Assembly: GCF_000003815.2 (NCBI RefSeq)
Contig: NC_049987.1
Coordinates: 20,702,072 to 20,766,071, forward strand
Reading direction: 5' to 3'
From: Branchiostoma floridae
Lineage: Eukaryota > Chordata > Leptocardii > Amphioxiformes > Branchiostomatidae
Length of the DNA stretch: 64,000 nt
A program made the translations under genes and the position numbers. Position 1 is the first letter of the stretch, and each line of letters begins with the position of its first letter. Below the pieces are notes generated by a model. That model saw only the letters and a list, made by a program, of their open reading frames with translations, was not told where the DNA came from and did no database searches. Shown piece by piece: positions 26,014-52,400 of the stretch.

Positions 26014-26337
26014 ATGGGAAACAACGTCAGCCAAAGCGACAGCGACGACGACTTTCTCTCGGACGAGCCCTCTGATGGCGAGGAGGCGCACGATCCGGCC
26101 CAAACCAGGGGCGGGAAGAAGAGTTTCGATCTGGACTTGCTGTTCGATCACGGGAAGCTTCGCGATGCCGCCTCGAAGATCAAGGACGGGCTGCCGGAGA
26201 ACGTTCTTCAGCAGCACCAGGGGCACCTCATCCGCTGGCTGGAGGACAGGAGCGCGAGGAACGAGGAGACCGTGTCGCTGTCTCAGTTCTGTGACGTGCT
26301 GATGAACCGGGGAGTGGGCAGGGAGGAGAGCGAACAG
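26014..26337 (+). CDS. ZZEF1: ZZEF1 exon 1, N-terminus
   Basis: The ATG at 26014 opens MGNNVSQSDSDDDFLSDEPS. MGN..S is a good N-myristoylation signal and matches the MGN start of vertebrate ZZEF1. It is followed by an acidic stretch and by the conserved block HQGHLIRWLEDRSARNEETV that precedes the EF-hand. The exon ends in phase 0 at a GTCGGG donor. The ATG lies 370 bp from that of ACOX1. Confidence 0.95.
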
Positions 26338-29300
26338 GTCGGGACGTCATACTAGCTATCTAAAAGCAGAAGTACTGCTTTCGCTTGCATTTGTACATGT
26401 TTTTGTACGTCTTTCTATCGATTTGTCACTTTATCTGTTCACCCAGACCTTTGGCACCCTTGAAAAGATTAGAAAAACTCTGCAAAAAAAGTCTGCAAAA
26501 ACAAGTCGAGGCTAAATATTTGCGTTTTGCAACATAGCAATGTTCATTACGTCATAGTCTCTTCGGGTAACATGAGTAAGAGGAAAGCGATTCTGATGTA
26601 GAAAGAGGAATCAGGACGACTCGGACCATTACTAACTCGGCCCATTGAAAATCTGGTCAACTCGGACCACCCCCCTGGTCAACTCGGACCACCCCCATGT
26701 ACCAGTCGGACCAAATTACTTATCTTTTGAAAAAAAGTTAATTTGACATTTCTTGGTACATTTGTACTAGTATTATAAAGATTGTCCACAGCTGCTACTA
26801 CTAGAACGTCAGAAGTTATGGTCATACAGAGTGGCGGTCCTTTGATCTAGTATCATATGTACCGCGGGCGCCGGCGATATTAAAACCGCGATATTAAAAC
26901 AAAGTGGACACGGTCGGCTTGAAAAAATTCTTAATTAGCAATTAATCTTCAACAAGAATGACTCATACTCTGATCAATACCCACATCTTATTTGTCTAAA
27001 ACTATTCCGAAGAGCAAGTAATGATAAAGTTTACTACTGTCCTCTATTAGAAGCGCCTCACACCTATCCACGTGTCCACACACGCTGCGTATTTCGGGGT
27101 CAACGACCTAATGTGCGCCGCCTGGAATGCCGAAAACTTCGATGAATTACACAATCCAATCAATCCAACCTACAGTTTTCTCATTTCAGAGTATATACAT
27201 ATAAAACTAGTGTTGGGATTACATTTTCGAAAAAAATCAATTAAATAGCTGTCCAGGGGGGTTGGTCCGAGTTGTCCCGGCAGATGGGCCGAGTTGACTG
27301 GGCCGAGTTGGTAATGGTCCGAGTCGTCCGACATTCTAAATGAGAGGATGGGGCTAGCTTACAAAGTGGAGTACATTTACCAAGCCAATGACATACACAC
27401 ATATACATACATATTAATATGGATATACTGTATAAGAAAATTGACAGGTTTCACAGTTTATCTACATCTACTAACAATAACTTGAGTAAGGTTAGCTTTT
27501 CTAATGTAATCTTATATCATCACCAGATGGAATGAATTATTACTATAGTACATTGTATTAGAAGATTCAGTGACATAGAAAAGATACATAATGCCACAAG
27601 AAAAGTGAAAGTAAAAGGTAGCATGTGAAGTCTATTGGTTAGTGGTCTGCCTCTGGAACTATAATCATGTACCACGTAGTGCCTGTCTTCTTTTTCTTGA
27701 CCAGTGGAAGAATAACTTTTCAGTGAGCAAAATTGGATCAATATCACTTTCACATTTTTCACTTATCAGACTTATCAGGTGTTCATAATAGTACAGATCT
27801 TGAATTTGAATGTAAGTAATAACAATATTGATAGATTTTGTGCCTTGCTGTGCAGGCGTTTGTCCAGTTTGACACAGAAGGAGATGGCACCACGGAGGTT
27901 CAGGCCATGCTGGAGACGCTGAAGTCCTCCAACGGTGCTGACCTGCAAGGGGAGCTGAACTACGTGGTGCGCACGCTGCAGTCCTGTATCCTCACCCCGG
28001 GCTTCGTGGATGTGTTTGCATCAGACAGGTGGGGACCAAACTACATGTACATTGTACAGCAGGGTTGTAGCCAGCATCCGTCCTTCTGTCCTTTGACGGA
28101 ATTTTGCAGCTGGGGATGGAAAAAAATTTTGCCCATTCTGTCCTCTGTAAGCAAAATCTAACCCTAAAATTGCAGGAAATAGCGTTCATCAAAGGGTCTA
28201 GATTTCAAAATTTTCATTGGGAGTATGTCCCCGGACCCCCTAGGAATGCTGTGTCAAAGTCATTCAAATCTAGGGGAAGGAAAATGATTTCTGGCTGGCT
28301 TCAACCCTGTTGTACAGTATGTGTACTACAGTTGTAAATAATCATGTGTTTTGTTGTATTTTATGTATTGTTTCAATCCTCAAGGCTAAGCTGACTCTTA
28401 TACTAACAGATCTGTTTCGTAGAGTATTTGCATCCTACTGGCATTTCAAAATCCTACAAGGCTAACTGCCACTATACGATTGACTGTAGAAATTACAATA
28501 AACTCCTCATTTAGAACATGGCCACTACCCCTCAGCCAATCAGAGCCCTTGAATTACTGTGTTTGTATCCCCATAGTGCAGAAATGTTTGGTACTATGAA
28601 AAAAAGTGTGGCACTATCAACTCATTTGCATAAATTAGAACCACACTTTTTTCATAGAACAACACTTTTTTAATAGTACAACACTTTTTCTGCACCACTG
28701 GTTGGCTCACACACTGTGCTAATTGCCTCCTAGTGGAGTAGAGAGGATTAAGACACAAAGACCCAATGTCATAAAAGTAGCCAACAGTTTAATGATTTCT
28801 ATAACTGGAAAACAGAACCAGATTTTCAGAAAATAACAAACTGTGCAATATTTTACAGACAGGAACAAATTGAGGCGGTGCCATCAAACTAAATAAAACA
28901 GTTTGATTCTTTGTAATAGATAGAAGATGGGTGTGGGTGGGGGCGTTAAAGGAACCCCCTTGTGGGTGGGACAGCCCCTATTTTCATATAATCAAGCCAC
29001 ACCCATCTTCTATCTATTACTTGTACAGTATTATTACTACAATTGTAAGGAATCATTGGTTTTGTTGTATTACATGTATCGTAGCCAATTCCCAGGGCCA
29101 AGCCAATTCTTATACTAATAGCCATTGGTTAGGGCCTGGGATTTTCCCTACATGTGTGTAGCTAGTCCATGACCAGTGATCTGGTGTCCCAGCAGGGTAA
29201 GCAGTAAGACACTGCCATGTTTGTCGTCTTCCCATCTGTAGACATAACGTGTCCCAGCACGGTAAGCAATAAGACACTACCATGTTTGTCATCCTCCCAT

Positions 29301-32300
29301 TTGTAGACATAATGTGTCCCAGCACGGTAAGCGGATGCTGAACAGGGTAGGAAAGGGCCTCACTCCAAACTGCTGAGAGTGTTACAGTACAATATTATAA
29401 CACCCTACCATTTTTGTCCTTCTCCCATTCTCCCATCTGTAGACATAACGTGTCCCAGCACGGTAAACAGTAAGACACTGCCATGTTTGTTGTCCTCCTA
29501 TGTAGACATAACGTGTCCCAGCACGGTAAGCGGTAAGACACTACCATGTTAAGGCAGTAAGACCTGTTTCTTCCAGATCACTTCAGTGTCACTGACGAAG
29601 GATAGTGGATTCTATCCAAAACGTCAGACCATTTCCTAAACCATATCCAGTTGCTTGAATAACTACTTTTTGGTGTATCTTATTACCTGGATGTCTAACT
29701 TACATCGACGTACACTGCCATGTTTGTTGTCCTCCCATCTGTAGACATAACGTGTCCCAGCATGGTAAGCGGTAAGACACTACCATGTTTGTCATCCTCC
29801 CATGTGTAGACATAACGTGTCCCAGCACGGTAAGCAGTAAGACACTGCCATGTTTGTCATCCTCCCATGTGTAGACATAACGTGTCCCAGCACGGTAAGC
29901 AGTAAGACACTGCCATGTTTGTCATCCTCCCATCTGTAGACATAACGTGTCCCAGCACGGTAAGCAGTAAGACACTGCCATGTTTGTCATCCTCCCATCT
30001 GTAGACATAACGTGTCCCAGCACGGTAAGCAGTAAGACACTGCCATGTTTGTCATCCTCCCATCTGTAGACATAACGTGTCCCAGCACGGTAAGCAGTAA
30101 GACACTGCCATGTTTGTTGTCCTCCCATCTGTAGACATAACGTGTCCCAGTACGGTAAGCAGTAAGACACTACCATGTTTGTCACCCCCCCATTTGTAGA
30201 CATAACGTGTCCCAGCACGGTAAGCAGTAAGACACTGCCATGTTTGTCATCCTCCCATCTGTAGACATAACGTGTCCCAGCACGGTAAGCAGTAAGACAC
30301 TGCCATGTTTGTCATCCTCCCATCTGTAGACATAACGTGTCCCAGCACGGTAAGCAGTAAGACACTGCCATGTTTGTTGTCCTCCCATCTGTAGACATAA
30401 CGTGTCCCAGTACGGTAAGCAGTAAGACACTACCATGTTTGTCACCCCCCCATTTGTAGACATAACGTGTCCCAGCACGGTAAGCAGTAAGACACTACCA
30501 TGTTTGTTGTCCTCCCATCTGTAGACATAATGTGTCCCAGCACGGTAAGCAGTAAGACACTACCATGTTTGTTGTCCTCCCATCTGTAGACATAACTTGT
30601 CCCAGCACGGTAAGCAGTAAGACACTGCCATGTTTGTCATCCTCCCATCTGTAGACATAACGTGTCCCAGCACGGTAAGCAGTAAGACACTACCAGGTTT
30701 GTTGTCCTCCCATCTGTAGACATAACGTGTCCCAGCACGGTAAGCAGTAAGACACTGCCATGTTTGTCCCTCTCCCATTTGTAGACATAACGTGTCCCAG
30801 TGCGGTAAGCAGTAAGACACTACCATGTTTGTCATCCTCCCATCTGTAGAAATAACGTGTCCCAGCACGGTAAGCGGTAAGACACTGCCATGTTTGTCAT
30901 CCTCCCATCTGTAGACATAACTTGTCCCAGCACGGTAAGCAGTAAGACACTGCCATGTTTGTTGTCCTCCCATCTGTAGACATAACGTGTCCCAGCAGGG
31001 TAAGCAGTAAGACACTGCCATGTTTGTTGTCCTCCCATCTGTAAACATAACGTGTCCCAGCATGGTAAGCAATAAGACACTGCCATGTTTGTCATCCTCC
31101 CATCTGTAGACATAACGTGTCCCAGCACGGTAAGCGGATGCTGAACTTCCTCCTGAGGAACCGCACCCCGAGCTCCGCCCTCCCCTTCTCCATCCTGGAC
31201 GGGTTTAACAACACCTCCGCCATGAGGATGGCGGTCCTGAGGGACCATCTGCACAGGCTGAAGGATGCCAGTAAGTATACAAACAAACGAATAATTAAAT
31301 AGTAGAACAAAAACATCTCCGCCACGAGGATGGCTGTCCTGAGAGACTACCTATACAGGCTGAAGGATGCCAGTAAGTATACAAACAAATAAATAAATAA
31401 ATAACGCCAAACACAACAACATTTCTGCCATGAGGATGTCTTGAGAGACTACCTACACAGGTTGAAGGATGCCAGTAAGTATACAAACAAACAGATAAAC
31501 AACTTAACAAACAAATACCCCAAAACAACATCACGGCAGTCATGACAATGGTGGTCTTAGACAAACAAACCCTATAACAACAACACCTCAGTCGTGTGGG
31601 GCCAGTCCCGTGGGGTCAACTGCACAGGTTGATGGATGCCAGTAAGTTTGAATCTTCAATCAATCAATCAATCCTTCAATCAATGAACTATTGCCAAACT
31701 GGATTTTAGTTAAATTTTCCTTTCTCTGACACTAGTATGTTCTACTAGTTCCTCTAGTATGTTATTCAGAAGATATGACAACCATGTGAGACACACATTT
31801 TTCAGCAAACACCAAAGATTTCTTTCGTTGTAAAAGCTAATCTAACATTCATTATAATCCTCCCTCCAGTATCTGAGTCAGATGAGACCATATCCATGAG
31901 CCCCACCCAGGAGCAGAGGGTCATCTCCAAGTGTTACAAGGGCATCGATGTCTCCACCAACAAGGCTGACGTCCACCGCATGACTGACGGCGACATGTCC
32001 ACCTACTGGCAGTCTGACGGAACTTCACGGTCACACTGGGTGAGGACGGACTTTTCATCAATCAATCAATCAATCATCTAATCAACCAATCAATCAATTA
32101 CTGCAATCAATCAATCACCAATTGGCATCAATGCTGATGCATGGCAGCTGTAGACCCCCCCCCTCTCTCTCTAGCATGTTTTATTTCTGATTTAGGATCT
32201 CCAGTTGACTCTGGGGGCCCCTAGCTCTCTGAGTGTGTTGCAGACTTGGTCATTCCACATTTAATCTATCAATGTCTAAATGAAATTCATTACTTCAGCC

Positions 32301-35300
32301 ACATGATTGCATACCACCATATATGGTTGCCAACTAATGCTTGTGTCAATAGGATAATTTATCTAAGGGACCACAGTCACCATGTCCTTATGCATAGATG
32401 ATCACAAGAACAAGTTTGACTGTATTTGTTAATTTGGCTAAAATAACAAGGACATGCAGGAAAACTGTGAAATTTGATGACAAAATGTTGAGCTAGTATC
32501 TTCTTTTTGAGCTCAGTATCAAGTTGTTTCAGATATTTGTGTAACTTATCAATCACTGCTCTTCTTCCAGGTGCGAATCCACATGAAGCCGAACGTGGTG
32601 CTGAAGCAGTTAGCGATCCACGTGCAGTCGTCAGACCAGAGCTACATGCCGCAGACTGTCACTGTGTCTGTGGGGAAGAGTCCAACATCCTTACATGAGA
32701 TTAAAGAGGTGAGACATTTCTAAGATAAGAGTCGGACAAGTCCACTAGTCCGATTGTCCGGGGCAAGTGAAAGTGCTGGTCAGGCAAGCACATGTCTAAC
32801 CCCACTTGCTCGATCGGGCAAATAAGATATTTCTATGAGTGAGGTTTTGAGATACTTGTTATTTTTTACCGTCATGGCATCAAGCATGGGTCAACACAGA
32901 AAAATAGAGCCAATGATCCAAGAACTCCATTGCTGGAAGTGAATTGAATTTCTTCTTTGCAATGCCATATGATTGGCATCTGTTTAAATAGTTTACAGAT
33001 GCTAAATTGCATACTTATTAGCAGAAAAGTTTCCATGTAGAATTGTTTTTAAAAAATTGTTTGGAACAAAAGAACAAAATCATATAAAGATACTAGTACA
33101 CTGTGAAGGGAAATAGCACTGAATTTCACTTCAAACATTGCATTTCTAGTTGTTTACAACAAGAAGTCAAGTGAAGTATCCTGTGCATCTAGGGTGAGCC
33201 CACTGGACAGAGCAGTGTGAAGACTAGCTGACTGCTGCCTACCCTTGTGTCAGGGACCCCAGTATAATCAAATACTGGATACTACTACGTCTCGCATGTT
33301 TCCTTCCCCATGTGCAGGTGCGAATCCCCAGCCATGTTACCGGAGATGTCACCCTGCTGGAGAACGCCAGGATGCACTACCCAGTGGTCCAGATCAACAT
33401 CCGACGTTGCCATAGTGACGGCTGTGACACCCGCATACATGGTCTCAAGACTCTTGGATACAAGGTACTGTGCATTTACTAGTAAGTAGAAAAAGATCTC
33501 AGTAAATGAAGAAATCCTTTATCCTCAGCAAATGGAGAAAGGTCTTAGCAAATGAAGATGAAAACATCTTGCCAAATGAAAAAAGGTTTGATAAAAAATT
33601 GGCAATAATTCTCTACAAGAAGAAGCAATATCTAGTAAGTAGCTATTTTCACAGTGTAGTGGCTTTCCATCTTTACCTCCATTTTAAACTATACCAAGCA
33701 TTCCTGAATCAGATGACATTGTACAATGACATTGACAGTCAAACTTGTTTGTTTTTCCTAGATGTCTGAAGACAGAGGCGTGAGCATCGCTGACGCCTCG
33801 GCTGTGTGGTACCTGTCAGTGCTGGCCTCCACAGCTACAGCTTCCATCCCCACCAACCCTGCCCTGGCCCAGACCATTCTGATCCACACCAGGGAAGCTC
33901 TGCGCCACATGCCTCCCCTGTCCCTCCTCCCCGGCTCCAAGGCCTGCCCAGCGTTCCTTAGCCCCGGTTTACTTGACGAGATAGAGCGCTTCCTGAAGAC
34001 AATCGTGGTAACAGAGGAAGGGAAAGTGCAGAGTGCAGATGGTCTGTTGGTAAGTTCATGTCTGTTTTTTCTTAGATCAGTTCTCAGTTTTTAGAAAGAT
34101 TTAAGATACATTGTACTTGTGAAGATACTGGCTGCTCAGCTGAAGATCTGCCCAAGGCTATGGAGGATAGGGAAGGATGGAGGAAGAGAGTCATGTTCAT
34201 CCGTGCAACCAGCACTCCTGGATGATGATGATATGATGAAGAAACCCCAGAAAATGGTTTATGAATGTAGGACTTCATGCTCAACTTGGAAAGATTAAGA
34301 CATTTGGATTACTGAATATAAAAAGTCCACACATAATGTATCTATGACAATGCTAGATTTCAGGAAAGCTAGATTTGATGTCTTCACACTTTTTTGTCCC
34401 CTGTAGATTCTAATGTCACCATCTCTGGCCCAAGAATGATAGTCTGTACACAAAAGCGGCACATACTGTAACCAGCATTTTTACCTCATATTACAACCAA
34501 TAAAAGAATCTTTCTAAAGTATTAAGGTTTAAAAGATTTAGTTGAAACTTTTTTCTCCCATCCATGTTCTGATGCTCTCCGTCTCTGGCTAAGAATGATT
34601 GTACACAGATTGTGGCATATACATGTATTGTAATTGGTATGTTGCACCCAGCAAGAGAATCTTTCTGTGAACTTAATTTACCACAAATTTCTCTCTGTCC
34701 CATCCAGGTACTGATGTCCCTGTCGCTGGCCCGTGGCCGGCTGGTCAGTGTCCTGGAGACGCTGTCCCTCCTGGCTGATAACCAAGACATGGAGATGCAG
34801 GCCGTTCCGCTCCTCAAGGCCATGCACAAGGTCACCGAGAACTTCTGGAGGAAGTATGGCTACCCCTTACAGGTGGGCAGTTTAACTTATTAGTACACGT
34901 ACATGTATATGCAGTTCATGTATAGTAAAAGAATGCCTTTAACCTTTATGGACTTGTGCACAAAATTTTACCTTGTACAGATCATTCAGTGGCTATATTG
35001 CTACTTAAGCTAAGGGCACAACCCGCTGTACATACAATTTGTCCGTACATTTTTTTGGGAGGCCACATCCGCCACGTATTTCTGAAAATGTTCAGGCTGT
35101 ACAGGGCAGGCACGTTGCCCGTACTGGCACGTACGGGGGGCAAACTCTTAGCCTGATGGTACACAAAGTTTTGCCTGCACGTAAAGTTCTATGGCGTGTC
35201 TGCGTGATTCAAAATCCGGATTCCCTATGAGTTCGCTGACTTGTTGTTGTTTTCCAGTTGTCCCTTACTGGCTGTGATGGCGGGCAGAAGGACAACAACT

Positions 35301-38300
35301 GCCCACCCTCCATCGTCCTGACCTCCGATTGGTCCACAGAAACTTACTACACAGCCATGGGCAAGAAGACAGTCAACTTCTTCTTCAAAACCGAGGGTGA
35401 AACTGCTGTCCAGCTCACCAGGGTTCGCATCAAGGTCCCCAAGGGTGGAACTGGGGCAAAATCAGGGATGCTGTTCCTGTACAATGCTGCCGCTGACTTT
35501 GACATTGAGACGCATTCCCGAAGGTTTGTTTGTTTATTTGTTGTTTGTTTGTTTGTTTGTCTAGCATAACTTAGTAAATTGCCTTTGGGCATAACACATC
35601 TGTTTGGTACTGGAATTGCTAGCTGCGTAAGATTGGACTGTGAGGTTTGTTCCACTCACTCCTAGACAAACTCCTTCTCTTTTAAATTTGTGTGCTGACC
35701 ATAAGTTCTTTAACATGCTCAAAGTGTGGGTCTCTTCAAGAGCAGGGCCTCTGGCTTTAAGTCTAATCTAAAGGATATCCATAACTATTTTGCGCATTTT
35801 GCGCAATGAATGTAAAAAATGTTTAACTTAGTAAAGATGGGATTAATTTTCAGTTGTTTTTCGTGTAGCGTCACATTCTAGTTACGTGTTAATAGCATCC
35901 AGATGGCATCCCTATCATGGGGAGTGCAGCGGTCACTTCTGGGTTTAAAACTCTCGTAACTGGAGTCTCTCGAGGTCGACCCAAATATGGAAACATGGGC
36001 ATGCATAATTACTGTTTTATGCCCTGTCAATCACCATGATTGACGGCATCGGAAGTACGAATCCTGGATATCTAGTTTACGTACGTTTTTGGACGAATCC
36101 TGGAGCCGACGAAATCTAGATGTTACGGTGAGGAAGTGCCTTTGCCAAGGGTACAACATTGGGGCCTACTGGAGATTTGAAGCCTAAACCTTTAGATTGT
36201 AAGCCTACAATTCTAACAATTTAGTGACCCATCTTGCTACCTTGCAGGTTCAAGGAATATGACACGATGACGTCATCGCAGTACGACGTCATGAACAAGA
36301 TGCGAAGCGTGGGAGTGGGAAAGGCGGAGGAGACGCCGATCGCTTTCTTCACGCTGGAGGAAGACTGGGACGAAGTCGACGTCAACATGGACGTGTGCAC
36401 CCGGGGAACATTCATCCTCCTGAAAATCACAGGCCCGCGATCGGACAGCGCGGAGCGCGTGGGCTTAATGGGTGTGAAATTCTACGGTTTCCAGCGACCT
36501 CACTCCGCCAACGCGGCCGAGGACATCGGCATCAACCAGTCCAGTCGTATAACCGTGGACGACACCAACCCGATCGATGCCGTGACCGTTTTCATCCGCA
36601 TGCTGTCGTTCCTGGTTGACATGACGCGGGACGCTCCGGCAAAGAAGGACGGTTTTCGATCGTCGAAGCTCCAGACCATTGACATGACTGGGGTGTCCAT
36701 AGAGATGCTGTGGAAGCTGTACTGCCACATCCCTGGGAAGGACAAGATCTGGGGAGAGAGGATCGCGAAAGTAAAGCTCCTCCAGCTGCTGAAGTGCTGT
36801 TTCCCATTCCTGGCAGCCACAGCAGCAGCCTGTAAGGAGAAGGAGAAGAAGGAAGCCAAACAGAGTAAGTTCTTAAGGTTGTTAACCATCCCCTTTGCTG
36901 CCTAACCCAGTAACTGATAGAGAATCTGTAGCCAAACTACAGTGACCCGAATGTTAACTGCTCAAAATTCTCCCTTTCTCTTTAGTACCTACAATATGTG
37001 GTTTCATTAGACCAACGTATTTCGAGCACTGTTTGTGCCTATTGTACCACCTATAATTTGACCTTCTCGTTACTTGTTCTTTTCTCACCTCTCTACCTTA
37101 ATGTGCTTTCACCATTCCCATATGCATGTGCTTCTTGTTCTTTGTTGCATCCCCATCTCATTTTTCTGTTTCAGCATTGTCTTCTTTAAATTCTGCAATC
37201 ATTGTTACATGAATCTTTTCCGATGTCATACATGTACCAGTTTTGTACTGTACTGCTGGCTCTAGGTCTTGCTTCTCACCCCATTCCCCACTGCCAAGGT
37301 GTTTTGCTGCCCCCGTCCCCACTGTTCTGCTATGATTTCTGCCTGTGTCTGTTGCAGTAATGTTACGATGGCCACTGCTACCTCCCCACATGCTCTTAAC
37401 TGAGGTCCTCAGGCGCAAAGGTGGGGTCTCTATCGTTGCTGAAGGAACTGCTGTCAAAACGTCTTACTCTTTAGCTTTGTCAAGCTTACATTTTACTATA
37501 ATTATTGCATGTCACTTTTAATTAGGTTACGTCTTTCTATCTTTCTATCTTTCCATCTTTATCCCTCCCAGTACTACAGACTGCATAGCTATGTCCCTTA
37601 TATGGATAGAGTTGAAATCTTGGCTCAATCGTTCCCCACTCTAATATTGTCCATGTTTCTTTGAAAGTTTGATGTTAAAAAAGGTATCATGTAATGGTAT
37701 GTCTGCTGAGCACGTCACCGGAACATACTGCGCCTGCGCAAAAAGTATAGACATGCTAAACTCCCGGTTTACTAAAGGGCCGCATTTCAGAAAGTATGTG
37801 CGTATATAAGGGTAAAATCCCGTGTACGTTTTACATGAAACCATGTCTCTAACATATACTGTGCAACAAGCGGGATTTCAATGCAACGTTGACCAAACCA
37901 CCAGGGTTCGCGCAGGCGCAGTGCGTTCTACCGACGTGTTTGTCTGCTGTATGTGCATGTAAGTATCCATAATATATGCTTATAATATGGAGACTCCATG
38001 TATTATGATTTATCAGCTGTACTGTACTGGCTACTCACAGTGTCATGTTTATACTACTGTACATGTACAACCTATTTGTTCCGGCATATCGCCATACTCA
38101 TGCATGTACCAAATCTTCCCTTACTAAAGGAGTACCTACTAGTACTTCCACAGCAGGCTTTTAGCTAGGATTTGATCATAGGGTGTCAAAATTTCTTGCC
38201 GTTCGGCGAGCGCTGCAGGTGCGAGTTTTGTAGGGGGTCTGGGGACATCTTCACTGAGAAAATTTTGAAATTAATAACTCTCTGAAACACCATTTCCCAC

Positions 38301-41300
38301 AGCTTGAGGTGCAAATTTTGGGCAATGAAGTAAATTTACTGTCAGACAGGCCACATGTGACCTGTAGCATCCCTGGTCAATCAGAATTTTATGCTTATCA
38401 GAGGATGTGCTCCCCAGTGTAAGGCCGTACAATTTGAGTTATTTTTTTAACAGGCCGTACAATGTACGCCTGTACGGCTGTCTGGCTTAAAGCCTGTTCC
38501 ACAGTGCCTGCTGTACTAATACCATCTGGGTTGACCAGTTTCCGTTGCCAGCTCCACCTTGCTAACCTTCGATCACAACTCTTCGTCCCCAGACAGCTCA
38601 GGTGAGATTGCGGCAGGTGCCATGTTTACACACCTGTGTGATGTGGTGGACAGCGCTGAGAAACACCTGAAGCCCATCAAGGTGGTAGCCGAGCAGGTCA
38701 TCTTAGACGGTCAGTGTTGCACACAATTATTAAATTTACATGTGTTTATTGTGCAATTTGCATTATGCAGTGCTTTAAATCTTCCCACTTCTAGGCCTAA
38801 CAAAGCCGTAAAACTACATTAAGTGTTTTAAAAAATTAGGAGCAGACAAGGTGAACAGAATGTAATGACACTTCCAATTCTTCTTTTCTTTTTTTGTGTG
38901 GCTTTTCTGCAATTTGAAAACAATTACTGAAGAGCCTCTCCCTCATTATTCAAGAATAAGTGTTACATGTAATTAAGACAGAAAGGAAATTTTCCATTTC
39001 CACCACAGGAGCATCTGTGTTCTTCCCCGTATCCACAAGATCAAGTGTTAATAAGATCACGTCTGTTACTCTCGCGAGTTTACCTTCTGAAGTGATTGGT
39101 CATCAGTATTGATCCTGAAGAAGGCAACAGTGGTCGTTGAAATTTAATCTGTGTGTACTTTTCTGTTGGAAGAAAGTTTTATTAGCATTGTACTAAGAAC
39201 AAGTGTTACATGTGATTAAGTGTCAAAGGACATTGTCCATTTCTCACCGACAGGAGCACCTGTGTTCTTCCCTGTATCCGCAAGATCACATGTCCGTTAC
39301 TGTTGCAAGTTTACCTTCTGAAGTGATTGGTCATCAGTATTGATCCTGTATACCTTTGCAGGGCTCGAAATACTGGGTGCATGTGCACCCAAAATTAGAG
39401 CTGTGCACCCAATTATTTTTTGTGCACCCAAATATTTTCTTAGGCTTATGTATGTAAAGATATCAAAGTATACTAGTATACATCATATTCTTGACATCAA
39501 AGTTTTAGAAAGATAATAAAAAAAGTCTGTCATGATGGTACTAGTTTAAGAATTTGACAGCTTGTAACTATGTTTTAATATTAGGTTTTTCTGACATTGT
39601 ACTTAAATTTAAGTGGTGCATCCAAAAATTTTTAAGCTGGGTGTACCAGTGCACCTAATCCCAAAAATGAATTTCGAGCCCTGCTTTGTGTTGGCAGAAA
39701 GTACAGCATTGTACTAAGAATAAGCATTATGTGTGAGTAAGACAAAGGAAATTTTCTATCCCCCACAGGAGCGTCGGTGTTCTTCCCCGACAAGAACGCC
39801 CGCCGTAAACAGCTGTTCCAGATGATGGAGACCATCTCCAGTCAGGAGCAGCCGGCTTCCGCCGTGCTGACGTTTCAGTCGCTCTGCCAGTTCTTCAGCA
39901 GTGTGGACCCCAGCGGGCTACTGGCGCTGCCCACTGCAGACTCAAAGGTACAAATTGTAGATCCTGTTGTTAAGAACCTTACTTTTACTCAAGTTATTCT
40001 TGAATGTTTCTGTTCTTCAGTGTGGAACAAAGCATACTGGCATTGGCCACTACTGATACAAAGGTAAAGTCTTGTTTGTTAGTTAGTTTTGCATGTACAA
40101 TAAACCGTCTTTAGGCATAACATGCCTGTTTTGTACAGTGGTTTCAAAATATTGCAGTTTGAAACTATGGTCTGTTGACTTTATATCTCTAACCCCACTC
40201 CATTTTTCAAAAACAAAGAATATAAACCTTAATTTACATATTATACAATTTATGTCATACCTGTGACGCAAAAACGTTCGATACCGGTGTTCCGGACCTT
40301 CCGTATCAGACCGGTTCGAAAGGCGTATCACACAGGCTCCATTCGAATAGATCGAACTGTTTCGAGCGGGCCGAATACGGCACGGTTGGCAATTCGAATA
40401 CCTGATTTGGACGTTGGAACATTGCTGTTGCAACACTTTTTTGTTCGAGGGCACCAAATTTGTTCAACTTCTGGTGCATTTCGCATCAAAACAGGGGTTT
40501 TCTCAGGTGGGTATGACATATACAAAATACAACACGGTGTATTCCGCATCACCCTCGGTCTCAGCCCTCCCGCAGGTCGGGCTGATACCTTGGGTGATAC
40601 AGAATATCTGTATCTGTATCTGTATCTGTATCTATATAGCCGGTATAACCGCCATTCGGCGTAACACACCAGCTTGGTGTATTCCGTGTTGTATTCTATA
40701 TGTATCATACCTGTTTATCAAGAATGTTTCTCACCTCTAGGAGGACTTCAAAGTCGATCAGGCACTTGCCGTGATGGACACCCTCCTGTCCGTGGCCCAC
40801 CGGGAATGCTCATCGACGCTGGCTGGAGAGAGGGGCTCCGACGGTCGCGCGTCGTTCCTCGTGCGTCTGCTGTGCTCGTTGCAGGGCAGCCTGGCCACCT
40901 GGTGCTGCAAGCAGATGGAGGGAGAGGATGGCAAGGTCCCGCCCGCACAGGAGTCTGTGGGGCTGGCAACTACACTGCTGCAGAAATGTGAGTTTTAACT
41001 TCTTCTTCCTTACTGCCTCTTTTCAGAGATTAACAGCAGATTGCGCATGGGTTAGTTACAACACAAGTGCCCAGTACAAGTAGACAAGGGAAAATAAAGG
41101 AAAAATGCTAAGGAAAGGGAAAACAACTGATTTTGTGAGTGCAAAGCATTGAAAAAAATGTAACAGCCTTCAGTACTGTTACTCCTTGATGCAATATGCA
41201 CTGTTACAGAAATGTGAGTTTTGTCTATCATCACATGTTTCTGGAAGTTTATACATACCCCCTGTCTTGAAAATGATCGCAATTTCAAGTAAAAGATGTT

Positions 41301-43366
41301 AACCCATAGCATACTGTTCATTACACATGTACTTTTTGGAATTTGCTTAAATGCTGCGGTACATTGAACCTATGTCTTCTATAGTATTACATTACATTAT
41401 TGTCTTTCCATACCACAACCTGTGAAAGACTGGCTTTTTTATAAGAAGCAAGTACTGGATCAGGACACATATAAAGAAAGTATGAGGAGGTGTCTGAGCA
41501 ATGTCCCTTTGTTACCCCTCCCCAGACACATTCCTGCTGAGTTGCCACTGTACAGAGCTGCTGACCCAGCAAGCTCGCAAGGGGTCACATGCACCAGGGA
41601 GTCTGTACAGACTGTTTTAAGGAAAGGATTGCAATGTCAACATAACTTTGGATTGGAATACATTTCCAAAAGAAAGTATTAATAATAAAGTATCTGACTG
41701 ATATCCCTTTGTTACCTCTCCCCAGACACATTCCTGCTGAGTCGCCACTGCACAGAGCTGCTGGGGAATCTTGTAGAGATGGGACAGAAGGCTGAAGCTG
41801 CGCTGGCCAACCTGCAGCACTCCTTCATAGCCACAGCACTGCCACAGGTACCACCAGTCACAAATATGTCCTTGTGACATTTAAACCAGTGACCTCATTC
41901 TATGGTCACCGTGACATAGATATTTGCATTTTAGCCAACATCAACAAAGTTATTTGGACAGCGTTGCCCATTTTACCTTTAAAAATGTGTCTGAAGTATC
42001 CAATTGAAAGCTATAAAAAGTTTCACTTTCCCATGTAACGCCACAAACTATGATCCCACATACCCAGATGTACGTGTAATCCGGATTCACTCTTTATTTA
42101 TTCTGGAGGGGCTGTTTATTTGGGACATACTAGTACAGTAAGAGTAAGTCTCCCATTTTTCTCCCCAGATGATTGTGTGGCTGATGTTGCTGTGTGAGAA
42201 GCCCACCAATCACACAATCATACAAGTCATTGTGACATCTTAGCAAGTGATATCATTCTATGGTCCCCAAGACTTGGATATTTGCATTTTGGCCAACATC
42301 AACAAACTTTTTGATGTCACGTTCCAGGTCCAAGACTTGCATTTCAAAATATTATGAAGGATAGAGCCTCCTGGAGAAGTAGATCTAGCATAGATTTAGT
42401 CTGCGCCAGAGAAGGTGGTAAACATTTATTGTTTAAACAACTTTAGCCCAATGCTAGATGATCCCCAGATTTTAAAGTCTCCAGTGATCTGGCCATATTT
42501 TTTGCCTGAAAATCTACCCTGGACCAGGCTTCAAAACTGGATTTTTCAAAACCACCGAAGAATCCGCCTAGAATCTGTTTTGGAGCATTCATGCTCAAAA
42601 GTAAATCCGGATTTGCTTACCAAAACAAATTAAACAGTTTTGATTTTTGCATCATGATCAGTGCCTAAGTGTCCATTTTTCTCCCCAGATGGGGATGGTT
42701 TAGGTGTCAATTTGGTCGTTTTCTGGGGTCACGTTTCTTCCAGAACGTATATTAGATTGTGAAGATTTGTCTGAAGGGTATGTTTATTCCTGAGCGGTTG
42801 TTTATTTGGGACATCATCGTGCAAAATACACACTTGCACACTTGTACACTGCAACCACTTTTTCCTTGGTGCAAGTTTCTTCTAAGCTCAGGTTGCACAG
42901 GATGCAACTTAGATTTTGATCCTCAGAACTCGATTTTGTTGTCAATTTACTTGGAAGAAATAAATGGACCGTGGCAGCTCCGTTTCATATAAGCCAAACA
43001 TGTAATAAATAAATATATATTGTACCTTTTTTTCAGAAGTTAGAGAACTGTAGGTGGTGCAACTTGAAATGTAGTTGTGCAACCTTGTTTTTGCCCCAGG
43101 TTGCACACTGTGCAACCTGGCTCAGAGAAGTATTTTGTACACTGGACATAAGAGTAAGTCTCCCATTTTTCTCCCCAGATGATTGTGTGGCTGATGCTGC
43201 TGTGTGAGAAGCCCATCCCCCACGTCTCCACCATGCACACACTACAGCCTGTAGCTGCAGAGCTGCACAGACTGGCCAAGAACCTCGCAAACACCTTCTA
43301 CAAGTAAGGAATGGTCCTTAGGCCATGCCAATGTAATAGCTTTTATCAAGAAAGTTACGTATTCAT

Positions 43367-43405
<39 letters not shown>

Positions 43406-46400
43406 CAAACAATGGATAGTGAGTGAGTGAGTGAGTGTGTGTGTATGTGTGTGTTCTTGTGTGTGTGTGCACGTGCATTTGTGTGTGTGCGTGTGTGTGC
43501 ATGCATGCGTGGGTGTGGGTGTGTGAGCAGCATAACTCAAGAAGCCTTGGATGGATATTTATTTAGTTATGATATTCAGTATATGGGTACAGATGTAGAT
43601 GTCAGCAAAACAAGTTAAAGCACAGGTTCAATAATGTGAATTTGTTGCTCAATATATACTTTTAAGTTAAATTAAAATTTATTTGTATGGGTAAAAGTGC
43701 ACTTTTCCTCCAAATGAACTACAATCCCTTTGAAAACTGAGTAAATAGACTTTGTGATATTTCCAGGCTTGACAGTGAGCAGTGGTCGTCCATCGGGAAT
43801 GACCAGGTGGTGTTGAGGACCTGGCACGTGGAGTCTCCACACAACTATGAGAACAACCAGCACTCCACTCAGATCTTCACATGTCCCGGGGCCACGCACT
43901 TCGTGGTGGAGTTTGATCAGAGGAGTGAGACAGAGAAGAGGTGGAGGAGAATCCCTTTTTGGGGCTTTTTAAACCATCATTGTAGTTTCAATTTTTCCTT
44001 AACTGTGAAACAAGTACTACAATCTCATACAATGTCATGTACTTTCTTCATGCATCAGAATCCAGAAATACAACTTATGATGTCATCTTTCTCCATCAAA
44101 AATTCTGAGTACTTTTCAATGCAATTGATCCAAGCTCACCATGTTTTGTGTTTTGAAATAGCAAATCCTGCTTCAAAGCTTTCCTATAACTTTACACAAT
44201 CTTCTCAACAAAATTCCCATCTGCTTACAACAAGTATGTACATGACATTTGTGTACATGCATAAAACGTACTTTTTTATGCTTACAACTTGGTATTTTTG
44301 AAAACTTATCTCTGATTTTCATGTTTTCCATCAGGTATGACTACCTGGAGTTCACAGACGCCCGAGGTGTGCGCACCCGCTATGACCAGAAGGTCGGGAC
44401 AGAGAAATGGCCGCTGAAGGTCACGTTCCGCGGGAGTCACCGGCTGCAGTTCCTCTTTCACTCCGACAGCAGCAATAATGAGTGGGGGTAAGTTTGGGCA
44501 CAAATAAAGCTGTGGTTCAGTGCTGGATAAATATATGATTATCATATATTTCCCAAGCCCCTGCTGTACCTACCTACCTACCTACCTAGTCCCTCCTGGT
44601 CGTTGGGGGGACAAGGTAGACATATAGATGGAGAGTTGTCTCCAGGACGGTATGTCTCTTGCTACAGTCAGTCTGCTGTATAATGGCTTACACATGTGTG
44701 GCCCAGGGCTGCAGAGAAGGAGATGGGTGCAGCCCAAGGCACCATTAGGTGCAGGAAGGACTTCATCTTAACTTTATACTTCCCAGTGGATTCCTATACA
44801 GCTAGCATCCACTTTTGAACTCATGACAAGTATTGTTCCACCAAGCCAGCTCTATAAGCTCATTGTGTTTTTAATTGTGATCTGTTTAATCTACTCAGAC
44901 CTTACAAAAAATTACTATTTACCGTGACTATTATGGTAAATGGTATTTTGCGTTTAAGTGTTGAACAAGGATGTAACTGTTTCCCTTTTCACCCTCTAAG
45001 GTACAAGTTCAAGGTGACGGCGCGCGGATCGCCTGACGTGCCGCTGCCGTGGCTGTTTGACCTTCAGCTGGGGCTGAGTCGGCTGGTGGGGAGACTGTGT
45101 GGGACAGCACTGGGGAAGGCACAGGTGAGTCTGCTGTGTGGGACAGCACTGGGGAAGGCACAGGTCAATGTTTTGTTTTGTTTTTACTTACTCACTACGT
45201 ACAGCGAACTGTAGCTACGTCACTGGCAGCTTGCTGTAAGCACTCCAGCCAGAACCAGCACATCTCCATGGTGCCTCTGGAGAAGGCGGGTACCTACATG
45301 TATTAAGTGCTTGGGTCCTAGGCCACATCTTGCAAAAGGCTATTCGTGCCAGAACCAACAAGCCTCAGCTTTCTGGTCTCATTCTCCTCAAAAGTGTATG
45401 CCGGTGACTTGCAATGTCATTTGACTTGATAAACATTAGTCCATGATTCAAAGGTGCCTTCTTGGGGTACCTGCATTGAAGCTTATTTCTTGTTGTGCAG
45501 TTAGTATTCTGTCCTATACGAGTGTTTGTGGTCTCTTTGTGTCGGCAGGAAATGGGGTTTCTTCAGAACTTGATTTCTTTTAAAGCAGTGTGTTACCTTT
45601 ACGTTATGGTGTATTTTCGTGCATTTACGTTATGGTGTATTAACTTATTAATATATTTATGCAATGAATGTACACTTGTTAGTTACTCTAGATTTCAGCC
45701 TGTTTTGAAGTCATCAGTGTTATCTAAATCAAAAGCACTACAACTCTTCTTGTGGCTGCCCACATGTACAGGGACAAGTGCAGCAAAGAGGAAGAAAACC
45801 TTCTACAGCGTAAATCGTTGTGTCTCAGACGACTATTTCTTTCCATCATGACTTATACAATGAATGTACACTTGTTAGGTACTCTAGATTTTAGCCTCTT
45901 GTGGAGTCACCAGTGTTGATTAAGTTAAGACACTACAACTCTTCTTGTGGCTGCCCACAGGTTGTAGACAAGGACAGCAAAGAGGAAGAGAACCTTCTGC
46001 AACGTAATGAGTTGTGGGGCACCCTGTTCAGGGGAGGATACCTGGTGGGGAGGCTGACCCGGTCTCTGTCCGGCCTCCACACCTCGCAGCCAGCCACCAC
46101 GGACGTCCACTCCTTCCTGTTAAACATGGCCGAGGGCAACGTGGACGCTCCTGCAGCAAGACAACTACTGACAAAGTAAGCCTGGGTTGTCTTCTACATG
46201 TATTACCTTTGTGTTGGTGTGTGTAAGTTTGTTCCTGCTGACTTGGGTCCAAGAATGGTCTGGGTAAAAAAGGGTATAACTGGAGACTTGCAGGTCCAAA
46301 GTTTTTGCCTCTGGCTTGGCCCAGGCCAAAGTCCGACAGGAAATCAGGAAACTATATTAGACAGAATTGGTGAGAAATTCATAAGAAGGCCTAAAACATA

Positions 46401-49400
46401 GTTTTTTTTACAAAGAATCACCAAATCTTCTGTTTCTTCATGTTTCCTGTAGATATTACTGTTTAGATTTGTTGGTACTTAATCTTGATTGAACCTTGTA
46501 GAGATTATCATAAGCAATATTGGAATACATGATAGTCTTGACTGAACTTCTAAATAACATGAAGATGCCAAGAGGCCGGCCTTGGCAAGGTGGTGATCTA
46601 CATTATAGATCTCTTTGACTCATGGCTATAGTTACTGGATGTTTGCAATTTTGTTCATGTTAATATCTAGATGCCAAGAGGCCTGCCCTAACCCTCGGCT
46701 GGGTGGAGACCTGCTGGACCGTACCATTGCTGCTATATTCGGCGCCCTCTTGTGGCACACACAAGAACTGCGGGAGGAGGTGGAGCAGCACATGGGGAAG
46801 GAGGGGACGCCTGTACCTGATGGTGTCACACAGGTGGGAAGTCTTTAAATCTTTCTGTGTCACTTTCTACAGAAGTTAGAAAGTTAGAGACCCCGCCTTT
46901 AAACCTGGGATGGAGAGTTGAGGCCCATCTACACTCTTGGAAAACTTTTGGAAACTTAGATTTGATCAATCATATCTTTGTTATTTCTTTTTAATTGTAT
47001 AATATTCATTGGAAAGTACACTGTCATATTACTTTGATGTTGATGCCATATTTGTCATGATCCTTCTTTTAGGGTTTGAACACTAGAGCTGATTATGGCA
47101 CTTGATTAAAAACAAAATTGCTGAAATTTCCCTAACAACACTGCCCGACATTTGGCACTTTTTGGCACAATTTTGGCACTTTTTTTGACAACTCACCACA
47201 AAATCAGTCATGATGCTTATTGAATGGTTAACACAAACAAGGAATCATCATGTAAAATGTACAGGCTTTTAGGTGAGGAAAGTTGGATTAAGATGATTTT
47301 TATTCATATATGAATTACTGTTTTACTTCAGGCCTATATGGCAGCAGAGAGCTTGCGACCGTACCTCCTGGATCAGCGTCAGAAGCTCATTGTGTCATCC
47401 GACTCAGAAAAGGCAGAAGACAAGAAGGACGAGAACAAAGCACCGCCCAAACTCTTTGCCACCCCAGACAACCTGATTTTAGCCTGTAAAGACAAGGCAC
47501 TGTTTCTACTGCAGTTCTCTGGCCTGGCCAGGTATGGCATGTCCGGGAGGTATGTTTCGGGGGACGGTTTCTTTCCTACTGAGTTTCATTGGTTTTCTGC
47601 ATATTTTTCTGCATTGTCCTCACTTTGGTTGCTTCATTTTATGCACGTTCTCAATACTTCTATGTTTACAGTTTGATTTCTTGCTTATGATTCTATTGTT
47701 GCCCATTTGCAATATTCTGTATGGCAATACCAAGAGCTGAAGCAGCATCTCACAACTTGTTTTCTTTGGGACAGAATATTCTAATAGAAAATTGCTGGGT
47801 ATGTTTAGAGTGGATTTGGCTTCACCCTGTGGAAAAAGAGCAGCATGGCTTGGAACTTACTTGTAAAAGCCTTTCAAGATGTTTTTCCTCCACTTGTTTC
47901 TCCCAGAGTGGAGTCCCAGACGGACCTGCGACCCAAGATGCAGCGGTCCCTGAGCAGGAAGCTGAGTCGGCAGGTTTCTGTGGACAGGGCCAACAGGAAA
48001 CAGGTGAGTCGGGTAGAACCAATATGGACAACAGTTTAACATCAGACGATGTTGTCATGAAAGCTCATCTGTGACTTTTGATACAAGTGCTGTTGCAGTA
48101 GCATTCATAAGACACAATCATGTACCCTGTACCCTGTTTTGGTAGTACATTGGCATCAAGCATTGTTCAACACAGAAAAAAAAGTGCCAATAGTAAAAGA
48201 ATTTCATTACTGGAAGTGGAAATAAGAAAAATATTTTGTTTAATTTTGGTCAAGTGAAATGTTACCTTGGGCAACTAAATGTTTTAAAAGGGAATTTTAG
48301 AACACTTGTTAAACCCTGTGTGCTAGTAGTTAAAAATCAAGTTATGTTTTTGACAAATTTCACAAGGGTGTTTCTAGCAGTGAACGTCCTTTCCCATGAC
48401 ATACATTTTGTATTTTGTAAAATGGCATCCATATCATTATGCATTTCTTCTACTTCTGTCATCCCAAGCACCTTAAGGCCACACCAATTTAATTTCTTGG
48501 TTCACGGATTTGCTCGCTCCTAATTTTTGGAAAAAAAAATAATAAAAAATTTAAATAAAAATTACCACTCAGCAAAATTTTCACCATTAATAAAACCATT
48601 CACCAACTTTCTGGTGTAGCAAATTGGCCTTTATATTTTAAGCTCCTTAAAATGTGGGTATTATTATTGCAGTTATATTTTTCATTCATGAAGAATGGGA
48701 CAAACATAAAAACTGATACTACCTTTGTAATTTTGAACTAACAGGTGCTGTTACTGTACAGTAATAGTGTTTTTGTACTTTTTTCAAGCCGAAAACTTTT
48801 TATTCTTTATGTTTTGGATTAGCCCTTACCTTTACCACAACCATTTTACAATTTTTGTTTTTATTTTTATTTCGCCCTCTCGCTCCATACTTTTTATGAA
48901 AAAATCTGTGAACTAAGAAATTAAATTTTGTGTGGCCTAATCAGTAAAGCTCATATTGTTATTGTTTCTCCCTGTCTCTGTCACCCCTCGCCTATCCATT
49001 CACCATGCCTGTGTGCTGTCGCCCCCCTCCCCCATTGTCCATGTGTTTGCTGCTCTGTTCCTCTGCTGTCAGTTCCATGCTGTTGTGCTCCACCCTCCCA
49101 ACCCTGCCCAAGGACTGGGGACCACCTATGGTCTGCAGCAGGACGTAAGTTTGGCACAGGGGAAACAAACTAACCATGGACTTTGTACTGATTCTAGTTC
49201 TGGAACGTCTTTTGCCACATCTTTTTGTTCAATAGACAGCAGTTACTTAATGCTAGTTCACCTTTATCCGCGGGGTAACCTATATCCGTTTTTTTTCAAA
49301 ACAGGGTATTTAGGCACATCAAGTCGATGGGTGGTAGTTTTAAACTGCAATATACTGAAAATATTTCAATTTGAAACCAACGTCCATCGGCCTGATATCC

Positions 49401-52400
49401 CCAAATACCCTGTTTTTAAAAGCAATGGATATAGGTTACCCGACCGATAAAGGTGAACTAGCGTTAATTGTTTGGTGTGAGATTGCAAATTCAGTTTTCA
49501 CCTGTTGGTCAGATTCCAATCAATAAGACTGAAAGCCATACAGAGATGCAGCAATGTTCTGCTTATTTTCCTTAACCCTTTGTAGAAAGGCCTACAAATT
49601 AGTGCTGAAGGAAGCTGCTAAGTTCCAGTAAAACCATATTTAGCTTGATGTCTATTCTTGCTCCTGTGATCGCATCTCTGCCCCCTTCTCCATTTGAATA
49701 CTGGTTATAATGGTCTTTATGTCAGAGTTACATCGGCCGTGAGGCAGAGGATCAGTACGCCTCCTTCAAACTGGTGCTGGACTTCATGCGAGACGTGAGC
49801 ATCACCAAAGACAAGGTGGAGCGGCTGCTGCAGGAAAGGCTGCAGAAAGCTCAAACTGTCGCAGACGCCTACAAGTTTGCTGCCGAGTACTTAAAGACAA
49901 TGGCTGAGCCTAAAGACTTCCAGGTATCAGACACTTTGTTTTTTGTTTCTTTCTTTAGGAAGATACTACTTAACTGTTACTTAACCGTAGCATGTAACAA
50001 TGTGTAGTAGCTACATTTCTTTCTGTATCTATATCAACTACAGATACCCTATAGTAATTGTTTAACTACTACAATGTTCTGTCCAACCTTAGACATGTAC
50101 ATGTACCAGGTACTAACTTCAACCATCTCATAGTCACATAATTGCCTTGGTAAAGGGCATCTTCAAGGTCAAATAGCTGGTCATTAGCTGGTGTGTTACG
50201 CCGAAGGGCGGTTATACCGGCTATATAGATACAGAAATACCAAGCCTCTACTTCTGGCTACAAAATGGACATGTTCAAAATTTGAATATTATCTTCTTTA
50301 CCTCCCCAGGTGCCAGTGGTGCTGTTCCTTCAGGAGCTCCTGTGCTCCCAGCAACAGTTCCCCCCACACTATGCCAGCGGCATGGAGGGCTGTGGGCTCG
50401 ACCTGGAAGCTCAGGTCAGCATTTGGGGGGGGCAAATCTTCTTTTATTCTAATGATTAAATACATTCAAATAAATGCATCATTGTACATTTTCTACATTG
50501 ATCCCTTATACCTACCCTTGGTTGTTGAGTTGCTATATTACAGAGTGGTGTATGAATTTTCTCAACTCCTCTGCCTACAAAGGAAAAATGATTGAGGTAC
50601 ATGTACATGTACAACTGTTACAGCAAAACCATTTCACTAAAACCTAGGACAGAATTTATAGACAAGCAGATTGGCAGAAACATTCTTATGTGGTGACTCT
50701 CAGTACATGCATGTACTACACACACTCACAACGAAGATTAAAGTAAAACCTATTTGTATTATCTCTACAGGTTCGCACATCATACTACACCCTGGTCCGA
50801 CGACTCGTCAACGTTGTCAATACCTTCCCACAAGGCAATGGGGCACAGCACCTGAATGCAACCTATGACCTGCTCCAGGTACTTTGACATTGTGATGTTC
50901 CATCAGTCTAGCAGCTTATCTTCCTGAAATACAACTGTACAAGAGAAACATAGCAACAATGTTACAATGTTACAATATCTTACTCAGTGTATCTTGCTCT
51001 ACATTACTAAGTTTATTTGTTCTTTCACCACTTGATACTTAATTCTGTATATCATACATACTGGTAAGCTGATGTTAGGGAAAATCTGTGTGGATGGTGT
51101 TCAGCACCAAGGACAAGTCTGTTCTAATGTGTGTGGATGGTGTTCAGCACAAAGGAAAGATCTTTTGTAATGTGTGTATAGCATTCAGCACCAAGGACAG
51201 GTCTGTTTTAATGTGTGTGGATGGCATTCAGAGCCAAGAACAAGCTGGTTCCAATTTATGTGGATAGTGTTCAGCACCAAAGACAGGTCTGTTTTGATTT
51301 GTGTGGATGGTGTTCAGCACCAAGAACAGTCTGTTACCATGTATGTGGATGGTGTTCAGCACCAAGGACACATCTGTTCTCATGTGTGTGGATGGTTTTC
51401 AGCACCAGGGACAGGTGAGTTTACCTGTGTGTGGATTGTGTTCAGCACCAGGGACAGGTGTGTTTATCTGTAGGTGGATTGTGTTCAGCACCAAGGACAG
51501 GTCTAATCCAGTGTGTGTGTGTGGTGTTAAGCAGCAATGACAGCAAAGACTGTGCTAAAAGATGGTGAAATAAGAGCCTGTTCCAGGTCAGTTAAAGTTT
51601 TTTTTTCAGAATCAGTTCTGTCTGTTTTCCAGGCCAGTCTAGTGCATTTCCTGGACATTGATTGGCAGCCGTACGACCTCGGGTTTGTGCAGGAGATCGG
51701 GTTACCTGCCATGCTGCTGCAGATGGCGAAGAGCAGTATCAGTTTACATGATGTCAGCACCAGCCAGCAGGACGAGGAGAAGGAGGACAAGCAGTACCAG
51801 GACTGCATGAAATGGTAGGTTCCATGGCAAGGACTGCATGAAATGGTAGGTTCCATGGCAAGGACTGTGTGAAATGGTAGGTTCCATGGCAATGGTAGGT
51901 TTCATGGCAAGGACTGCATGAAATGGTAGGTTCCATGGCAATGGTAGGTTTCATGGCAAGGACTGCATGAAATGGTAGGTTCCATGGCAATGGTAGGTTC
52001 CATGGCAAGGACTGCATGAAATTGTAGGTTCCATGGCAATGGTAGGTTTCATGGCAAGGACGGCATGAAATGGTAGGTTCCATGGCAATGGTAGGTTTCA
52101 TGGCAAGGACTGCATGAAATGGTAGGTTCCATGGCAAGGACTGCATGAAATGGTACGCCAATATATTGATAGTGATGAAAATTGCTAATTATTTCCATTT
52201 CAAGTCGTAAGATGGCCAGCAATCGGTTGGGAGCCAGTCAGGAGAGATTCAGCAGTCTGCGGCTAGAGGTCAGGATGGTTGGGAATACGTTATATGGCAT
52301 TCGGGATTAGCTTAAATCTTCATTGTCTTGCTTGTGTGCTATCAATAATTGTTGTTCACTTGCAATTAGCAATTTGCATTAAAGTTAACAATGTTTTCTG

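Follow-up and report, generated by a model that had tools for sequence, protein, structure and literature searches.

Immediately upstream of exon 3 of the amphioxus gene ZZEF1, the acceptor and opening bases of that exon are repeated many times over, and in our judgement this array is very likely to be a mirage: a minisatellite that arose by tandem duplication spanning the acceptor, for which no function need be supposed, and whose decoy sites are passed over in splicing. Nothing in the data requires the array to have a function. It would have started when the region around the exon 3 acceptor was duplicated in tandem, and have grown by repeated copying of whole units; the donor end of the exon was duplicated too. 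Only the unit joined to the body of exon 3 can serve as the exon without breaking the protein, and the remaining copies are accordingly found on its intron side.

The gene and the repeated ends of exon 3

The window is a stretch of 64,000 nt from a single assembly of Branchiostoma floridae, and all coordinates are positions within it (Table 1). Exon candidates were obtained locally, with splice matrices taken from general knowledge, and used in a protein search; the best 120 of its 363 matches, which are those listed, include P0001, a ZZEF1-like protein of B. floridae (in the database, zinc finger ZZ-type and EF-hand domain-containing protein 1-like), as well as models from B. lanceolatum (P0002) and B. 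belcheri (P0003). A separate exon finder with matrices of the same origin gave 27 exons, many being missed, and its output was replaced by these candidates and then by a model fitted to P0001 (the exon 30-31 and 31-32 junctions were placed by hand from local candidates, and the exact translation confirmed both). The spliced translation of the 42 exons in the window matches residues 1-2670 of P0001 with no mismatches, the final 309 of the 2979 residues falling outside the window. The preliminary description of this DNA had thus named the gene correctly, and its limits for exon 3 (31110-31270, with the donor at 31271) are those of the exact gene model. APC10/DOC and ZZ domains were found by Pfam in a draft translation. 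All 41 introns in the window are GT-AG, and intron 2, at 3081 nt, is the longest of them (median 599).

Some further features may be recorded here. The annotated donor of exon 38 (TACT, GTAGACT; 60492-60534) looks weak; an alternative, earlier donor after 60492 likewise leaves an open exon, and the annotation there may be wrong. On the minus strand, 20136-23204 is a 1022-residue open frame of a Helitron-like element, with Helitron_like_N, DUF6570 and STPRs repeats (and a Herpes_teg_N match just over the cut-off), in which a tandem repeat at 21748-22238 encodes the peptide repeats. A run of 100 N at 23901-24000, probably an assembly gap, lies near this element and a 42-bp repeat.

Table 1. Features of ZZEF1 and its duplicated junctions (positions in the window)
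Feature	Position	Strand	Basis
ZZEF1 gene, 42 exons	26014..63736	+	Spliced translation identical to P0001 residues 1-2670
Intron 2, carrying the acceptor array	28029..31109	+	ZZEF1 gene model
First copy of the exon word, partial and lacking an acceptor	29177..29202	+	Word search
25 decoy acceptor units with two interruptions; 24 keep AG	29203..31070	+	Word search, unit comparison
Last 65-bp unit, holding the genuine exon 3 acceptor; exon start 31110	31071..31135	+	Word search, gene model
Exon 3, 161 nt; latent coding GTAAGC at 31130	31110..31270	+	Gene model
Array on the donor side (period about 102) of the exon 3 end with GTAAGT; its donors are 31271 (genuine), 31373 and 31475	31210..31499	+	Tandem Repeats Finder, unit comparison
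Region around the diverged fourth donor, 31642 (approximate edges)	31572..31680	+	Unit comparison
Exon 15 acceptor-region copy, 200 nt upstream of the genuine one	41490..41563	+	Junction scans
Exon 16 acceptor-region copy, 1010 nt upstream of the genuine one	42139..42205	+	Junction scans
Second large mirage: exon 28 donor (51815) and eight donor-like copies, 51846 to 52153	51799..52155	+	Tandem Repeats Finder, intron scan
Acceptor of exon 38 (60322) and its copies, 59985 and 60221	59963..60389	+	Junction scans

Tandem Repeats Finder reports the 65-bp repeat in two parts, at 29184-29550 (5.6 copies, 65% matches) and at 29712-31135 (21.9 copies, 94% matches, score 2491). When the window was searched for the start word of exon 3, 26 units were found in the sequence as assembled, with word starts from 29242 to 31110: 25 decoy copies of the acceptor and first exon bases at a period of 65, and then the genuine one, exon 3 being the last unit, as had been proposed. 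A looser limit adds a partial copy at 29177 and a single weak match at 17232, and there is no match anywhere on the minus strand of the window. The array is not continuous, being broken by non-repeat blocks at about 29345-29402 and 29553-29710. The second block holds CACTGACGAAGGATAGTGGATTCTATCC, which has diverged minus-strand matches at 59438 and 59485 and is perhaps a dispersed element. For the 65-bp unit itself an origin from a dispersed repeat finds little support in the window, where the weak match at 17232 is the only one beyond the array. Recursive splicing was rejected; after AG the units read ACAT, not GT.

Each unit had been credited with a TAG acceptor, a GTAAGC word and 20 exon bases. 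The two words are each present in 25 of the 26 units, the exceptions being unit 25 (31045), which adjoins the genuine unit and reads TAA, and unit 3, with GTAAAC; the homology to exon 3 is longer than 20 bases. It extends over 24-28 nt in all but one of the 25 decoys; the exception, at 29307, matches over 37 nt and may be a trace of a longer duplication that came first. In the regular part of the array (29706-31135, 22 units) the consensus opens with 39 intron bases, the last five of them TGTAG, followed by ACATAACGTGTCCCAGCACG and GTAAGC, and in genuine exon 3 this last word is coding (GGT AAG CGG, Gly-Lys-Arg). The 302 bp at 29935-30236 recur exactly, 260 bases further on, and growth by the copying of a four-unit block is therefore recent.

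The 21 decoys that are in register differ from the consensus at 11 of 420 exon-part positions and 44 of 819 intron-part positions (five of these where the first unit borders an interruption), and at none of the 126 positions of GTAAGC, counts which are mutually dependent because the units share descent. The unchanged GTAAGC could mean constraint, in units that are not independent. A mere hint of another kind is that the sole dead acceptor, in unit 25, belongs to the nearest rival of the genuine site (one dead acceptor among 25 would fall there by chance with a probability of 0.04).

The private changes of individual units, the nested 260-bp duplication and the two non-repeat blocks all argue against the array, or its length, being an error of assembly, as does the run at 23901-24000 being the only N run in the window; like structures are also described by others in amphioxus, in the parts of their reports to which we refer below. 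Such an error is very unlikely in our view, even though repeats and unlike haplotypes are difficult to assemble and a supplement caption mentions one globin mirage as having been aberrantly assembled in the draft genome (PMC3087553).

The donor side of exon 3, which did not figure in the preliminary description, is also repeated, with donors at 31271, 31373, 31475 and 31642. The copies comprise about the last 60 bases of the exon plus GTAAGT, that at 31642 being diverged. Exon 3 alone among the 42 exons has copies at both ends in a scan of whole adjacent introns.

Splice-site choice and the reading frame

Scored with matrices built from the other introns of ZZEF1, the genuine exon 3 acceptor reaches 6.4, which is the 22nd percentile; two of the 25 decoys score higher (7.7 and 8.3; units 3 and 21), seven score the same and 16, among them the dead unit 25, score lower. 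The four donors of exon 3 each score 5.4 (gene median 7.6). Sequence does not set the genuine acceptor apart, and the accuracy with which it is chosen would therefore have to come from context. With 24 live decoy acceptors, nine of them scoring at least as high as the genuine one, and four donors of equal score, it would be left to context alone to pick one productive pair in a hundred, and the locus offers a ready natural experiment on exon definition and splice-site choice.

The 25 acceptors that have AG (24 decoys and the genuine one) and the four donors define 100 products, and the annotated pair is the only one open through exon 10, the remaining 99 stopping at codon 176, 189 or 230. Skipping of exon 3 leads to a stop, and the frame is closed when a 20-nt decoy unit is added before exon 3 (0/24 open) or when 1 to 25 extra copies of the genuine 20 nt are inserted (none open). 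Products of decoy acceptors, decoy donors or added units thus meet early stops on translation, and would presumably be destroyed. When, by contrast, a single 20-nt unit links exon 2 to exon 4, the product stays open for each of the 25 units (the genuine one and 24 decoys), with the loss of 47 residues; the difference between 161 and 20 nt amounts to exactly 47 codons, which preserves the frame, and one class of mis-splicing would therefore escape decay. The suggestion that any inclusion would shift the frame consequently holds for a unit added before exon 3, but not for a unit that replaces it.

Could the array then be a functional splicing regulator, the decoys binding splicing factors or diverting transcripts to poison or short forms (including the in-frame protein shorter by 47 residues), and so tuning ZZEF1 output? 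It is true that AG and GTAAGC are each kept in 24 of the 25 decoys, but young units retain their sites through recency alone, and a block was duplicated recently; GTAAGC is indeed unaltered in the 21 in-register decoys, but in the genuine exon this latent donor forms part of the coding sequence. The open frame of the exon 2-unit-exon 4 product in all 25 units with AG, the genuine one included, and the position of the one dead acceptor in the nearest rival (the chance of 0.04 given above) would both suit a regulator, whereas other junctions of ZZEF1 bear copies of their own at the background rate, and exons of 20 nt separated by gaps of 45 nt are short for normal splicing. On this balance we regard a regulatory role as unlikely. 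It is highly improbable that exon 3 acts as a splice-choice ladder, in which one of about 25 interchangeable 20-nt microexons sometimes replaces it, to give a protein that stays in frame but is missing 47 residues immediately ahead of the APC10/DOC domain, in a share tuned by copy number between animals and even cells.

In general, exons can be defined as units, there are lower limits to the sizes of exons and introns, and faulty messages are subject to decay. If the array is a mirage, the genuine acceptor is most likely recognised together with the donor that lies 161 nt from it, exon 3 being defined as a whole, and the decoys would be passed over because each offers only a 20-nt exon or a much longer one; the products in which a 20-nt unit stands in for exon 3 would be those to avoid decay.

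Duplicated junctions elsewhere in ZZEF1

The 82 junctions of the gene were scanned for local copies over three ranges, the first two of them with random controls. Within 3000 nt, 11/82 junctions have a copy (mean of circular shifts 12.2, sd 2.8), and within 1500 nt 12/82 have one, compared with 12.8% of 600 random positions. Over the whole adjacent intron, 13/82 junctions have between them 45 intronic copies, 43 of which keep AG or GT; the total takes in 24 of the 25 acceptor decoys (that at 29506, which has an indel close by, is not among them), and neither the diverged donor at 31642 nor the last copy of exon 28, at 52153, is included in it. None of the 45 copies gives an open frame when substituted for the genuine site, although long stretches of intron are seldom open anyway. 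When the 82 junctions were compared with sequence 9-12 kb away as a control for chance matches, none attained the score of a copy (at least 13), the highest being 10.

Seven minisatellites were picked by hand from the Tandem Repeats Finder output (period at least 30, score at least 140, inside the gene, overlaps merged), and four of the seven touch a junction, against a shift mean of 3.8. Local tandem duplication is thus abundant in ZZEF1 and strikes junctions about as often as other positions, and in these three tests on one gene there is no excess at junctions over random placement. A local copy spans 6.5% of exonic positions and 17.1% of intronic ones, with junctions falling between; compared with exon positions alone, junctions are struck more often. 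In a two-sided search within 1500 nt, the best copy lies upstream for 8/8 acceptors and downstream for 4/4 donors, and its presence on the intron side at all 12 junctions is what selection on the protein predicts.

Two introns of ZZEF1 hold minisatellites of 39-43 bp that resemble one another (GTGTTCAGCACCAAGGACAGG; 51083-51543 and 58605-58866), and each of them, when translated, matches the final part of the protein model from B. belcheri.

These figures bear on the notion that the duplication process prefers exon-intron junctions, mirages being targeted rather than accidental. Mirages are reported, in the passages cited below, from several amphioxus genes, exon 3 has been struck at both ends, and junctions are struck more than exon interiors; the deficit in exons is nevertheless the expectation under selection on the protein, and with no excess over random placement within ZZEF1 in any of the three tests we consider targeting extremely improbable. 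Since junctions are duplicated about as often as positions chosen at random, mirages seem to arise passively, from local duplication that is frequent, and to be confined to the intron side by selection on the protein, at least in this one gene. This simple account, of random tandem duplication at junctions filtered by protein selection, is open to genome-wide testing.

Mirages in amphioxus species and genes

The protein models of all three species skip the array or lack it: in P0002 and P0003, as in P0001, exon 2 runs into exon 3 with no residues derived from the array, protein models being unable to show whether the genomes of B. lanceolatum and B. belcheri carry it. In P0003 (residues 1268-1446), the last 40 residues of exon 20 occur three times, with a shorter diverged copy in addition, and the start of exon 21 occurs twice; the copies of exon 20 stop at the end of that exon, and those of exon 21 start at its beginning. 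Neither P0001 nor P0002 has repeats of this kind. To judge from the protein sequences, the B. belcheri repeats are probably mirages at the exon 20-21 intron that annotation has taken for exons, which would mean that mirages are gained and lost within the genus. Amphioxus gene models may therefore annotate mirage copies as exons, as that of B. belcheri seems to.

The exon 3 array has the anatomy by which mirages are known: a unit that spans the boundary (39 intron nt ending in AG plus 24-28 exon nt and, on the donor side, exon end plus GTAAGT), an end that coincides with the true splice site of an actual gene, and a cephalochordate host (2670/2670 residues identical to the B. floridae protein). 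The exact internal duplication at a lag of 260, as seen in one assembly, is also consistent with instability in length and with somatic instability. Mirage minisatellites in the amphioxus Adh3 gene were reportedly described by Canestro et al. in 2002, an account known to us through papers that cite it.

That mirages at amphioxus exon-intron junctions are already in print, as the preliminary description had said, is borne out by passages of two papers (PMC3087553; PMC3902484). The first describes them in the globin genes BflGb6 and BflGb9, citing Adh3 and others, and in the portion available suggests undisturbed splicing, reports variation in length and proposes a role in intron gain (PMC3087553); the second concerns splice-site repeats in PGBD5 and TnC of lancelet (PMC3902484). 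Our search of the literature, which most subscription journals lay outside, found no paper joining ZZEF1 with amphioxus.

To the extent that these excerpts describe them, the Adh3 and globin mirages resemble the ZZEF1 arrays in being tandem copies of an exon-intron boundary beside the genuine site, many of which keep AG or GT, and in that either boundary can be involved. The Adh3 units, of 10-72 bp according to citing papers, cover the 65 bp of ZZEF1. In size there is a difference: BflGb6 has six and three units of 150-160 bp in two haplotypes (PMC3087553), whereas ZZEF1 has 26 acceptor units, and its exon 3 adds a separate donor array on the same exon. Variation in length between haplotypes and undisturbed splicing are reported for the earlier examples, whereas ZZEF1 is known from the DNA of one assembly. 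The 108-bp repeat of the PGBD5 and TnC passage is a triplication, and the PGBD5 copies are imperfect; that passage mentions no long array like that of ZZEF1 (PMC3902484). A further parallel is with the creation of introns by internal duplication (Rogers, 1989; Gao & Lynch, 2009; both as cited in the available part of PMC3087553), in that duplicated AG and GT words could become new introns, although the ZZEF1 copies sit in an existing intron and the annotated protein shows no new one. Set beside these systems, the exon 3 array of ZZEF1 is a large, two-sided addition to the mirages already known from amphioxus.
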